Source: Clostridium sp. AM30-24
Lineage (GTDB): Bacteria; Bacillota; Clostridia; Lachnospirales; Lachnospiraceae
Length of the DNA stretch: 64,000 bases
Direction of reading: 5' to 3'
Assembly: GCF_003480435.1 (NCBI RefSeq)
Contig: NZ_QUJB01000003.1
Location: 62,001-126,000, forward strand
Part shown: positions 15,004 to 50,823 of the stretch, one piece after another
How positions within the stretch are numbered: position 1 is the first letter of the stretch
Layout: every line of letters begins with the position of its first letter
Made by a program: the position numbers and the translations under genes
Notes under the pieces: model-generated
Seen by the model: only the letters and a program-made list of their open reading frames with translations
Database searches by the model: none
What the model was told of the DNA's origin: nothing

Positions 15004-15057
15004 AAAAAACGGCAGCGGATATCTGTAAGCAGATTACAGAGCTTGTTGTCGTTTTTT
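15004..15057 (+). terminator. Intrinsic terminator of the ABC importer operon
   Basis: AAAACGGCAGC (15006-15016) pairs with GTTGTCGTTTT (two G-U pairs), then TTTTTT. The structured repeat copy 1 begins at the next base. Confidence 0.8.
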
Positions 15058-15190
15058 GTGTAATAGGAAATTCCGAGGAATTTCCTATTACACAAAAGGC
15101 ACTCACGTGCCAATGATGCGCACTCGCGCGAAGCTGTAGATTGTCGCAAGCGACCGCGCGAGGCGCGAGAATGTGCCAAGGCACATTCTT
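15058..15190 (+). repeat. Structured intergenic repeat, copy 1 (full-length)
   Basis: Four hairpins in series. A (15058-15093): an inverted repeat with core AGGAAATTCC/GGAATTTCCT and outer GTGTAAT/ATTACAC. B (15098-15111): GGCAC/GTGCC. C (15118-15166): outer GCGC and CTCGCGCG paired with CGCGCGAG and GCGC, a 12-nt bulge, and inner GTCGC-AA-GCGAC. D (15169-15188): GAATGTGCC-AA-GGCACATTC followed by T-rich DNA. It has no coding potential and lies between the ABC operon terminator and the ybaK leader. Confidence 0.9.
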
Positions 15191-15306
15191 TATTATTGCT
15201 TTTTTGTGTATCCCGTTGTATAAATGAGGTGCAGCAAAAAGGATTAAATACCGGACTGCGGGCGGATGCGGCGCAGGGAAAAAGCTGTGTTCAGGAGGAA
15301 ATATTT

Positions 15307-17959: not shown

Positions 17960-18190
17960 CAGTTAAAGGGTTAGTGATTCCTGGGATGTTCGACACTCCT
18001 GTCTATTTTGAACCTACATTTTGACATACGGGATTCCTATATTCTTGAACGGATGTCAGGCCTCCAAAGAGTGGAAGGCAGATGTTTAAGTGCGGATGCC
18101 CACCTAGCACTGCTAGGCGTCAATTATTCAGGAAACGGCATTTTGGGATTGCGAAAGATAAAAAAGCAGCGAGAGATCGCTGCTTCTTTT
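17960..18190 (+). ncRNA. ssrS: Probable 6S RNA
   Basis: A promoter-to-terminator unit of about 230 nt without a convincing frame. Near the 5' end CCTGGGATGTTCG resembles the conserved 6S opening (CTGAGATGTTCG in E. coli). TTCCTG (17978-17983) can pair with CAGGAA (18129-18134) to close the molecule. A CCTAGC-ACT-GCTAGG hairpin (18103-18117) lies on the 3' strand, as in the central bubble of Gram-positive 6S RNAs. 6S RNA mimics an open promoter and binds sigma-A RNA polymerase. The assignment is by eye. An 89-codon frame across it (18008-18277) has no RBS and is rejected. Confidence 0.65.
18164..18190 (+). terminator. Intrinsic terminator of the 6S-like RNA
   Basis: AAGCAGCGA and TCGCTGCTT form a 9-bp stem followed by CTTTT. 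Confidence 0.85.
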
Positions 18191-18323
18191 CATGTAGCAG
18201 GAAATTATAGGAAAGACCGCCTGCGAGGATTTCCAAACGACGGTTTTGGAATGCGGGGAATGTTCAGATTCTGTTAATACTCTTTTCTAAATGATCGAAG
18301 TATGATATTATGGGTGCAAACAG

Positions 18324-22032: not shown

Positions 22033-22071
22033 AAGGACCAGAAAGGCAGAAGTGCAGCCTTCCTGGTCCTT
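22033..22071. terminator. Intrinsic terminator after the SpoIID-like gene
   Basis: AAGGACCAG pairs with CTGGTCCTT with an inner GGC/GCC, giving a long stem. The T-run is poor. Structured repeat copy 2 begins within 3 nt. Confidence 0.7.
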
Positions 22072-22073
22072 GT

Positions 22074-22156
22074 CAATGATGCGCACTCGCGCGAAGATGT
22101 AGACTGTCACAAGCGACCGCGCGAGGCGCGAGAATGTGCCATGGCACATTCTTTTT
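22074..22156 (+). repeat. Structured intergenic repeat, copy 2 (hairpins C and D only)
   Basis: It matches copy 1 from ATGATGCGCACTCGCGCG through the terminal GAATGTGCC/GGCACATTC hairpin but lacks hairpins A and B. The inner stem reads GTCAC-AA-GCGAC, one mismatch against GTCGC in the other copies. It sits between the convergent SpoIID-like and pfk genes, so its last hairpin with TTTTTT could also serve as a terminator. Confidence 0.88.
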
Positions 22157-23370
22157 TACTTTCTGTACAGATATTTCGGTACACCGTTTTCCATCACACG
22201 CGTTGGCTCGCCCTGAATCAGCGGGAGAGCGTAGGCTAAGAAGTCATCGGTGATGTCGTTTCCGGAAGCGCTGATCCATTCCTTCGGAAATTTCTTCTCC
22301 TGATTACAGATGAGGCTCACATCCTCCGTAGAGCAGTGCATCGTGTAGGGAACATTGGAGTCACGCTTGAAGGCGATCATTTTCTTTGTCTCCCCGGCGA
22401 GAGCTGCCTTCACGCCCGCGGCACCTGCCATAGCGGATTCTTCGATATCCGTCTCAGATACCATCATGCCGCTGCAGCGCTGGTTGACGTTTAACTCGAT
22501 GGAGCGGACTTTTACGCCGAACTTATCGCGGACAAAGCTCTCTAAGATCTCACCGCATCCGGTGAGCATCTTGTGACCGAAGGAGTCAAGCTTTGCGGCA
22601 TCAGAGTACTCACAGATAAAGGTTCCGCCCTCATCGGCGATTCCCTCGGAGACGCAGACAACGAGGTTCGGGGACTTTTTGAAAGCCGCGTCGAGATCCT
22701 TGTAGAACTGTTCTAAAGAGAATGGTGTTTCCGGAAGGTAGATCAGGCATGGGTTGTCGCCCTCATATTTTCTTGCAAGCTTTGAGGCCGCTGTGAGCCA
22801 TCCGGCATGGCGTCCCATGATCTCGACGATGGTGACAGATCTCTGCTGATAGACAGAGGCATCAAGAACGATCTCGCGGACAGTGGAAGCAACATATTTT
22901 GCAGCGCTTCCGAATCCGGGGGTGTGGTCAGTGAGGACAAGGTCGTTATCGATCGTTTTTGGAATCCCGATGAATTTCACATCGCTTCCGATTTTTTCCG
23001 CGTAGCGGGAGAGCTTGTCCACGGTATCCATGGAGTCATTTCCGCCCACGTAGAGAAAGTAACCGATGTTCATCTCGCGGAAGTTGTCAAAGATCGCCGG
23101 ATAAACTTCGCTTTCTAAATCAGCCGGGAGTTTATAACGGCAGGAGCCGAGATAAGCGGCCGGAGTGAGTTTTAGGAGTTCCAGTTCTTCTTCAGAAAGA
23201 TCCGTGGAGAGGTCCATCACATGGTCCGCGAGGAAGCCTTCGATCCCGTTGATCATTCCAAGAACATGTCCGTCTGTGCCGGATTCCCGGAATGCTTTTA
23301 CTGCGCCGTAAAGACTCGCGTTGATAACGGCGGTCGGTCCGCCGGACTGTCCGATTACAAGATTTTTCAT
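22156..23370 (-). CDS. 6-phosphofructokinase with pyrophosphate-type active-site residues
   Basis: A 404-aa glycolytic kinase converting fructose 6-phosphate to fructose 1,6-bisphosphate. It has the N-terminal IGQSGGPTAVIN loop, YVGGNDSMDT and GIPKTIDNDL. Classical ATP enzymes have GGDGS and PGTIDND. An Asp after GGN and a Lys in PKTIDND are the pair associated with pyrophosphate-dependent enzymes, so PPi use is inferred, not shown. The frame extends 13 codons upstream, but ATG at 23370 follows GGAGA and starts the conserved MKNLVIGQSGG. Confidence 0.88.
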   Translation of the reverse strand: MKNLVIGQSGGPTAVINASLYGAVKAFRESGTDGHVLGMINGIEGFLADHVMDLSTDLSEEELELLKLTPAAYLGSCRYKLPADLESEVYPAIFDNFREMNIGYFLYVGGNDSMDTVDKLSRYAEKIGSDVKFIGIPKTIDNDLVLTDHTPGFGSAAKYVASTVREIVLDASVYQQRSVTIVEIMGRHAGWLTAASKLARKYEGDNPCLIYLPETPFSLEQFYKDLDAAFKKSPNLVVCVSEGIADEGGTFICEYSDAAKLDSFGHKMLTGCGEILESFVRDKFGVKVRSIELNVNQRCSGMMVSETDIEESAMAGAAGVKAALAGETKKMIAFKRDSNVPYTMHCSTEDVSLICNQEKKFPKEWISASGNDITDDFLAYALPLIQGEPTRVMENGVPKYLYRK

Positions 23371-23621: not shown

Positions 23622-23669
23622 AATACCCTGTTCGCTGACCTTATAGAGGCGGCGGGTGGGGTATTTTTT
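23622..23669 (+). terminator. Intrinsic-terminator-like hairpin of unclear ownership
   Basis: AATACCC (23622-23628) pairs with GGGTATT (23659-23665), extended by seven further pairs including G-U, and is followed by TTTT. No plus-strand gene lies immediately upstream (the pfk gene runs away from it), so it may end an unrecognised transcript. The rest of 23523-23621 is AT-rich and unassigned. Repeat copy 3 follows directly. Confidence 0.6.
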
Positions 23670-23670
23670 G

Positions 23671-23742
23671 TGTACTCGCGCGAAGATGTAGATTGTCGCA
23701 AGCGACCGCGCGAGGCGCAGGAATGCGCCAAGGTACATTCTT
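23671..23742 (+). repeat. Structured intergenic repeat, copy 3 (truncated, diverged)
   Basis: It retains ACTCGCGCGAAG, the 12-nt bulge, GTCGC-AA-GCGAC and CGCGCGAGGCGC, but the outer GCGC on the left is replaced by GT. Hairpin D is degraded (GAATGCGCC/GGTACATTC). It lacks A and B. It lies upstream of the oleate hydratase promoter. Confidence 0.85.
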
Positions 23743-23758
23743 ATTTACAAGGAAAGGC

Positions 23759-50606: not shown

Positions 50607-50644
50607 GCCATCGGCGGTTCTGCGAGCCGTCGGTGGCCATTTTC
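50607..50644 (+). terminator. Intrinsic terminator of groESL
   Basis: GCCATCGGCGG (50607-50617) pairs with CCGTCGGTGGC (50627-50637) via G-U pairs, followed by CATTTT. Repeat copy 4 overlaps the T-run. Confidence 0.78.
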
Positions 50645-50777
50645 ATGTAACAGGAAATTCCTCGGAATTTCCTGTTACATGAAAATGGCACTAACGTGCC
50701 AAAGATGCGCACTCGCGCGAAGATGCAGATTGTCGCAAGCGACCGCGCGAGGCGCGAGAATGTGCCAAGGCACATTC
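50639..50777 (+). repeat. Structured intergenic repeat, copy 4 (full-length)
   Basis: It has all four hairpins. A (50639-50686) has the core CAGGAAATTCC/GGAATTTCCTG and outer CATGTAA/TTACATG. B (50687-50700) is GGCAC/GTGCC. C (50707-50755) matches copy 1 except in the bulge (AGATGCAGATT). D (50758-50777) is GAATGTGCC-AA-GGCACATTC followed by TTTTT. A further hairpin, TATGACAGG/CCTGTCATA (50784-50808), follows and reuses AGGAAATTCC. It lies between groEL and the convergent CYTH gene. Confidence 0.9.
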
Positions 50778-50823
50778 TTTTTGTATGACAGGAAATTCCC
50801 TGTCATATAAAAATACGAACAGT

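Follow-up and report, generated by a model that had tools for sequence, protein, structure and literature searches.

A family of short multi-hairpin repeats in gut Lachnospiraceae, a probable non-autonomous mobile DNA element

The repeat in the 64-kb window

The window, the whole 64-kb stretch of DNA that was analysed, contains a repeat family of four direct copies, all on the plus strand and all with ordinary genes as neighbours. A repeat search has located the reference copy (copy 1) at 15094-15191 and the other three at 22057-22154, 23646-23743 and 50683-50780, with 73-95% identity to copy 1 over 98 nt, confirming the four same-orientation copies with a near-identical core that had been described in the original prediction. 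Taking repeat search, fold and model together, the complete element of copy 1 extends over 15053..15191, and its neighbours are called as ABC-transporter and tRNA-editing domain genes. A terminator-like hairpin with its T-run (15009..15057, plus strand, from sequence and gene call) is found 3' of the ABC-transporter gene, and copy 1, as read by eye, starts at this T-run (15052-15057). The other complete element, copy 4 (50640..50780; sequence, fold, model and gene calls), is placed between convergent GroEL (cpn60) and CYTH-domain genes. According to sequence, model and gene calls, copies 2 and 3 are 5'-truncated. Copy 2 (22078..22157), between convergent SpoIID-domain and PFK genes, consists of H3 and H4 only and begins directly after the upstream gene's terminator-like hairpin, and copy 3 (23670..23742), between divergent PFK and MCRA genes, has a decayed H4.

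Complete copies (1 and 4) are composed of four hairpins in the order H1, H2, H3 and H4, given here with the plus-strand coordinates of copy 1. H1 (15054..15097, from the fold) is a palindrome of 20-21 bp in which the foot pairs the T-run with an A-run, and H2 (15098..15111, fold; GGCAC/GTGCC) is a hairpin of 5-6 bp. H3 (15118..15166, from sequence and pair counts) is a GC-rich stem, GCGC-A-CTCGCGCG, with a one-sided 12-nt bulge (15131-15142) and an inner GTCGC-AA-GCGAC hairpin, and H4 (15167..15190, fold) is a 10-bp hairpin with T's after it. The four-hairpin structure that had been proposed holds for copies 1 and 4, which fold far better than shuffles (z of -12.7 and -11.9), and fails for copies 2 (z -2.7) and 3 (z -2.2, with 7 of 200 shuffles folding equally well), both of which are devoid of H1-H2. 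The core motifs previously described (CTCGCGCG, the 12-nt bulge, GTCGC-AA-GCGAC and CGCGCGAG) are present with single-base changes among copies, such as GTCAC in place of GTCGC in copy 2, and the stem is 4 bp longer than had been stated. A GTAG motif is located 5' of the hairpin in copies 1-3, with GCAG in copy 4; it was found in 12 of the 42 aligned copies, and G-N-A in at least 90%.

Two partial forms were also observed on the plus strand of the window. An H1-like palindrome without H2-H4 (50785..50806, sequence) is located behind the T-run of the H4 of copy 4, and a 6S RNA gene (17975-18153; Rfam RF00013, 71 bits) is followed by half of H1 (TTTTCATGTAGCAGGAAATT, 18187..18206, sequence) with no element, perhaps the remnant of a lost copy.

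At gathering score this 6S RNA was the only Rfam match in the window and no copy of the repeat matched, in agreement with the earlier remark that it was not recognised as a named REP, MITE, riboswitch or ncRNA family. Around copy 1 only 11 sub-threshold Rfam matches were obtained, of which 9 were to microRNA models, over the H1 palindrome. As no name for the family was found in the open-licence literature, it is apparently unnamed.

Distribution of the family and its insertion sites

A covariance model (R1) was built from 42 copies that include those of the window, which therefore scores by construction. The search of relatives with such a model, proposed with the original prediction, has produced 48, 30, 26, 11, 54 and 21 matches in six genomes at E <= 0.01, that is, 11-54 in each, and another genome (G016) has 108 at E <= 1e-4. 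At E <= 1e-5 the repeat was detected in 17 of 61 genomes (Clostridium fessum and 60 relatives) and in 18 of 61 in a largely overlapping set (G006 and 60 relatives). In a survey of 250 genomes of the C. fessum family, the Lachnospiraceae, 75 carried at least one copy at E <= 1e-6 with strict filters and 175 showed none, copy counts and non-carrier calls being lower bounds because 17 candidates per genome were scored. Further copies beyond the window, whose absence would have counted against the original prediction, are thus present in the family. The exact H4 pattern was found at no fewer than 120 loci of the genome collection, and the 120 loci listed include Lachnospiraceae, Clostridiales and Eubacteriales bacteria, C. 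fessum, Coprococcus comes, Brotaphodocola, Oliverpabstia, Anaerocolumna and Dorea. This is a large family of short repeats with up to four hairpins in many gut Lachnospiraceae.

A blastn search also returned 27 gut records carrying the repeat at E <= 0.01 (MT835487.1, MT835472.1 and 25 others), all named 'Bacteriophage sp.', which may be bacterial contigs. A phage origin was discarded, with 0 matches in the viral contig collection for two exact patterns of the repeat and none in the plasmid collection for an exact pattern. The repeat is short, GC-rich and palindromic, as chance similarities or assembly artefacts can be, but near-identical copies occur with different flanks in many independent assemblies, which refutes this explanation and leaves it a negligible probability.

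The 178 model matches in the loci examined correspond to 171 distinct sites. With genes called by a custom scorer, 35 of these sites had no call, 9 were inside a called frame and 127 had genes on both sides. Among the latter, 75 were between co-oriented genes, 37 between convergent genes, 8 had both genes opposed to the element and 7 were between divergent genes, the upstream gene being co-oriented with the element in 112. The presence of H1 was tested in 148 distinct sites, leaving out 11 of genome G024 and 12 near contig ends; it was recognised in 104, and none was found by the test in 44. A run of at least four T marks the beginning of 89 of the 104 copies with H1, and in 77 of these 89 a hairpin with a folding energy of -8 kcal/mol or lower directly precedes the run, versus 518 of 1780 shuffles (simple permutations). 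At the right end CTTT[TG]TT[AC]T is conserved, with random sequence beyond (148 rows). Both ends of these T-run types are rich in T; the longest word common to the two flanks averages 5.14, slightly more than with swapped flanks (4.87, sd 0.14), so that a T-rich target duplication is possible. Read by eye, one copy of C. comes is placed behind the terminator of a gene whose homologue in the window has the terminator and no copy. Tandem copies were found in G068 and other genomes, the second one starting behind the H4 of the first. The link with terminators is not universal, since the copies of G024 have no 3' T-run, and for only 6 of 20 of them do the preceding 42 nt contain a hairpin of -8 kcal/mol.

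The orientation of the copies bears on a host DNA signal, such as a site for replication polarity, uptake, recombination or nucleoid organisation. In single-contig genomes, assuming that contigs start at the origin, the strand of the element follows the replichore: G012 has 18 copies on the plus strand and then 8 on the minus strand (26 of the 27 matches listed), and among the copies listed 7/7 in G274, 7/7 in G234, 5/5 in G145 and 4/5 in G128 fit. The GC skew of the element strand was positive in 59/60 and 19/20 loci. However, neighbouring genes are biased too (49/56 and 35/44 on the element strand), the copies of G016 point both ways within a single contig, two copies of G181 go against the pattern, and most genomes show no copy. 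Replication polarity was rejected as the cause, gene-strand bias accounting for much of it, and a host signal of this kind is considered very improbable.

Conservation of the fold

The letters of the hairpins differ among types (CTCGCGCG/CGCGCGAG, CTGCGGCG/CGCCGCAG, GGATTCGG/CCGAATCC and others) and the pairing is kept. In 51 distinct rows 93.6% of the cells pair, compared with 72.1% in shuffles, and changes on both sides are seen in 25 of 26 pairs (17.1 in shuffles). RNAalifold applied to alignment A1 missed most of H3, and the structure was set by hand and verified by pair counts; alignments A2 and A3 were fitted to the model. At the five variable positions of H1, 316 of 330 cells pair with their own partner, versus 51% with swapped arms.

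G-U pairs and A-C mismatches, whose counts are not independent between related copies, were both rare and nearly equal in number (16/18 and 39/35), also when only co-oriented copies were considered (28 G-U, 24 A-C) and at the variable positions of H1 (8 GT, 6 AC). In the stems of 42 tRNAs from the same loci, used as control, 38 G-U were found versus 3 A-C. This difference indicates conservation of the fold on both strands, that is, in DNA, and the structures are read as hairpins or cruciforms of DNA in which both strands matter alike. Of the functions suggested in the original prediction, a DNA-structure signal is borne out to the extent that pairing is preserved in DNA, and an RNA processing site is not supported, G-U being no commoner than A-C mismatches and most copies lying behind a hairpin and T-run.

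A structured RNA, namely a 3'-UTR element, back-up terminator or mRNA-stability hairpin under transcript selection, would agree with the position of most copies just behind co-oriented genes, with the resemblance of H4 and its T's to a terminator, and with the strong covariation and the folding of complete copies far beyond shuffles. Selection on a transcript is nevertheless opposed by the G-U and A-C counts when compared with those of tRNA, by the G024 copies without T-run and by the 175 of 250 family genomes that show none at E <= 1e-6 with strict filters, so that a structured RNA is regarded as unlikely. The repeat looks more like a mobile DNA parasite than like a regulatory RNA.

The fold is also modular. 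Short forms without H3, found at five loci (L012, L037, L045, L089 and L128), could have arisen by deletion between the GCGAG repeats on either side of H3. At seven other loci (L018, L024, L047, L080, L097, L106 and L117) a further module (CGCTCCGCTTCGG...GAGCGCCACTGGCGCTC...) replaces or extends H3, and L125 has an insert similar to it. A second element nested in H3 was considered and rejected; as both arms are complementary in L080 and L097, the insert is read as an extended module. Mosaic copies were observed in G012, L267 and L268; in these two subfamilies meet at AATG[AC]CGTT, one providing the 5' part and the other the 3' part.

Signs of movement and comparison with known systems

In genome G024 a unit of 124-192 nt with fixed ends was found in 40 places (the query and 39 others). 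Of the 39 further places, 36 match the query copy at 94-97% and about 10 are complete; many are at contig ends, where a single copy may in some cases be counted at both of its ends, making the true number smaller. The left flanks read TTTAA in 18 of 20 copies and GTTAA in 2 of 20, after 3 of 23 rows were dropped by eye (two reverse palindrome readings and one internal repeat), and the right ends read CTTGAC in 18 of 20 and CTTGAA in 2 of 20, with no common letters beyond on either side. The first 10 copies read had the CTTGAC end and ten different flanks. Each end is constant and unlike the other, so neither is a target duplication; no terminal inverted repeats (by eye) and no target duplication were found in this genome. 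It is in G024 only that near-identical copies, sharp ends and absence of target duplication were observed together. Six of its contigs (C2, C38, C44, C45, C101 and C154) begin inside the repeat, the assembly being broken by it, and an autonomous partner could be hidden at these broken ends.

Other genomes were compared as well. Seven copies of C. fessum show 90-92% identity to copy 1 of the window over 140-147 nt including H1, whereas the single gene stretch of C. fessum found to match the window among the loci examined shows 77%, the repeats thus being more alike than the genes. In G026, whose sequence comes closest to the window's flanking genes (71%), 0 copies were detected. At a G006 locus the element is placed behind a terminator common to five genus-mates, all five without H2-H4. 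After the T-run, G072, G073, G071 and G069 have half an H1 with ATAGGAA, which looks like the decay of an old insertion and not a virgin site and resembles the half H1 behind the 6S RNA of the window; G068 keeps less. No clean empty site was found in the genus of G006 (8 genomes, the intergenic stretch being read in five of the seven genus-mates).

The explanation considered probable is that the repeat is a small, modular, non-autonomous mobile DNA element of Lachnospiraceae, moved in trans and usually landing on terminator T-runs; a non-autonomous mobile element is also the best supported of the three functions initially suggested. The enzyme, supplied in trans, would recognise the element of about 75-190 nt by its folded DNA hairpins and move it, possibly as single-stranded DNA, to the T-run of an intrinsic terminator, usually in the direction of the gene, where it would do little damage. 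Its H4 with T's, terminator-like, could then act as landing site for the next copy, giving tandem copies. Transposition is presumed here, as are a single-stranded-DNA (HUH-type) mechanism and termination of transcription by H4.

A bolder form of this explanation, thought rather doubtful, is that the DNA is recognised by its multi-hairpin shape and not by its sequence, and that it hunts intrinsic terminators and carries its own, so that each insertion would spare the gene and rebuild the landing site. With recognition free of sequence the hairpins could be rewritten and the architecture retained, as is seen between the G024, G068 and window types.

In its most concrete form, and not as an alternative, the mobile-element explanation would make the repeat a non-autonomous partner of IS200/IS605 (HUH Y1) elements specifically, PATE- or REP-like and moved as single-stranded DNA, which is held as possible though tentative. 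It is favoured by the G024 copies, with a fixed left pentanucleotide, a different fixed right end and no duplication, as described for IS200/IS605 in PMC7290912. Read by eye, three IS200-type Y1 elements of relatives (L182, L188 and L189) sit directly behind terminator T-runs; L182 and L188 end in a hairpin and TCTTGAC or TCCTGAC, L189 ends otherwise. In all three elements the transposase gene is followed by a long non-coding stretch with several hairpins. Against such a partner, the sequences of H1 and H4 differ, and the Y1 transposase (PF01797) was present in 47 of 75 carriers versus 89 of 175 non-carriers (p = 0.097), an association stronger in the first 61 genomes (14/17 carriers, 21/44 others) than in the 250-genome set. 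It was missing (E <= 1e-6) from 28 of the 75 carriers and from 10 of the 21 genomes with at least 8 matches, including the single-contig G274, and G024, so that Y1 as a requirement is not supported. Nor is a TnpB/omega-RNA partner, TnpB (PF07282) being present in 2 of 8 carriers. R1 gave a single match across 29 Y1/TnpB loci, beside the insertion sequence and not as its end, and no autonomous element with the ends of the repeat was detected. As both proteins are missing from many carriers, some other enzyme may be responsible, or the enzyme may have been lost after bursts.

The repeat occurs in about three of every ten genomes sampled from a major family of gut bacteria, and it offers a natural system for the spread of gene-less short hairpin DNA and for terminators as insertion safe harbours. 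It is also a warning, since covariation alone would class it as a structured RNA and the test of G-U against A-C indicates DNA.

Several known systems share part of these features. According to PMC3049150, SPRITE of Streptococcus pneumoniae is a short terminator-like repeat of 30 copies, enriched behind convergent genes, with one 18-bp duplex, a T-rich (U-rich) tract and AAAA/TTTT ends; its ends are T/A, a duplication could not be established and its mobiliser was not known. The present repeat is likewise short, terminator-like and placed behind genes without an established duplication, but it is set apart, by description, by its up to four hairpins, unpaired bulge and TTTAA/TTGAC ends in one genome. 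BOX of S. pneumoniae and S. suis, as presented in the same article (PMC3049150), is similarly a small interspersed repeat built of modules, stem-loops that can be exchanged; it has terminal inverted repeats and target duplications, neither of which was seen in the G024 copies, a distinction that is also one of description. REP/BIME sequences with TnpAREP are high-copy palindromes recognised as single-stranded DNA (PMC8266576); they share the short unpaired motif 5' of the hairpin, but here GTAG occurs in 12 of 42 copies only, no Y1 was found in 28 of 75 carriers and the element is longer. PATE of IS200/IS605 is described in PMC7290912 as an ends-only hairpin element with no inverted repeats and no duplication, and IS200/IS605 inserts 3' of a fixed tetra- or pentanucleotide. 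The G024 copies resemble it in the absence of inverted repeats and duplication and in a fixed pentanucleotide at the left end (TTTAA/GTTAA, 20/20), which may belong to the target or to the element, other types having a T-run in this place; they differ in that no autonomous element with the same ends was found among the 29 Y1/TnpB loci. Judged by eye, L182, L188 and L189 are like the repeat in landing behind terminators, with a T-run that can pair with a left-end A-run, and the first two in the hairpin and TTGAC-like right end; unlike it they carry a Y1 gene, and R1 finds no match within them. A MITE of a DDE element is distinguished by terminal inverted repeats and target duplication, not found in G024, the T-run types giving 5.14 versus 4.87. 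For human microbiomes PMC8040213 reports 250 palindromic candidates, of which 230 are predicted to be terminator stem-loops, and the family might be among these 250. No known system among SPRITE, BOX, REP and PATE fits all features, and the family is of the same REP/BOX/SPRITE/PATE-like kind.
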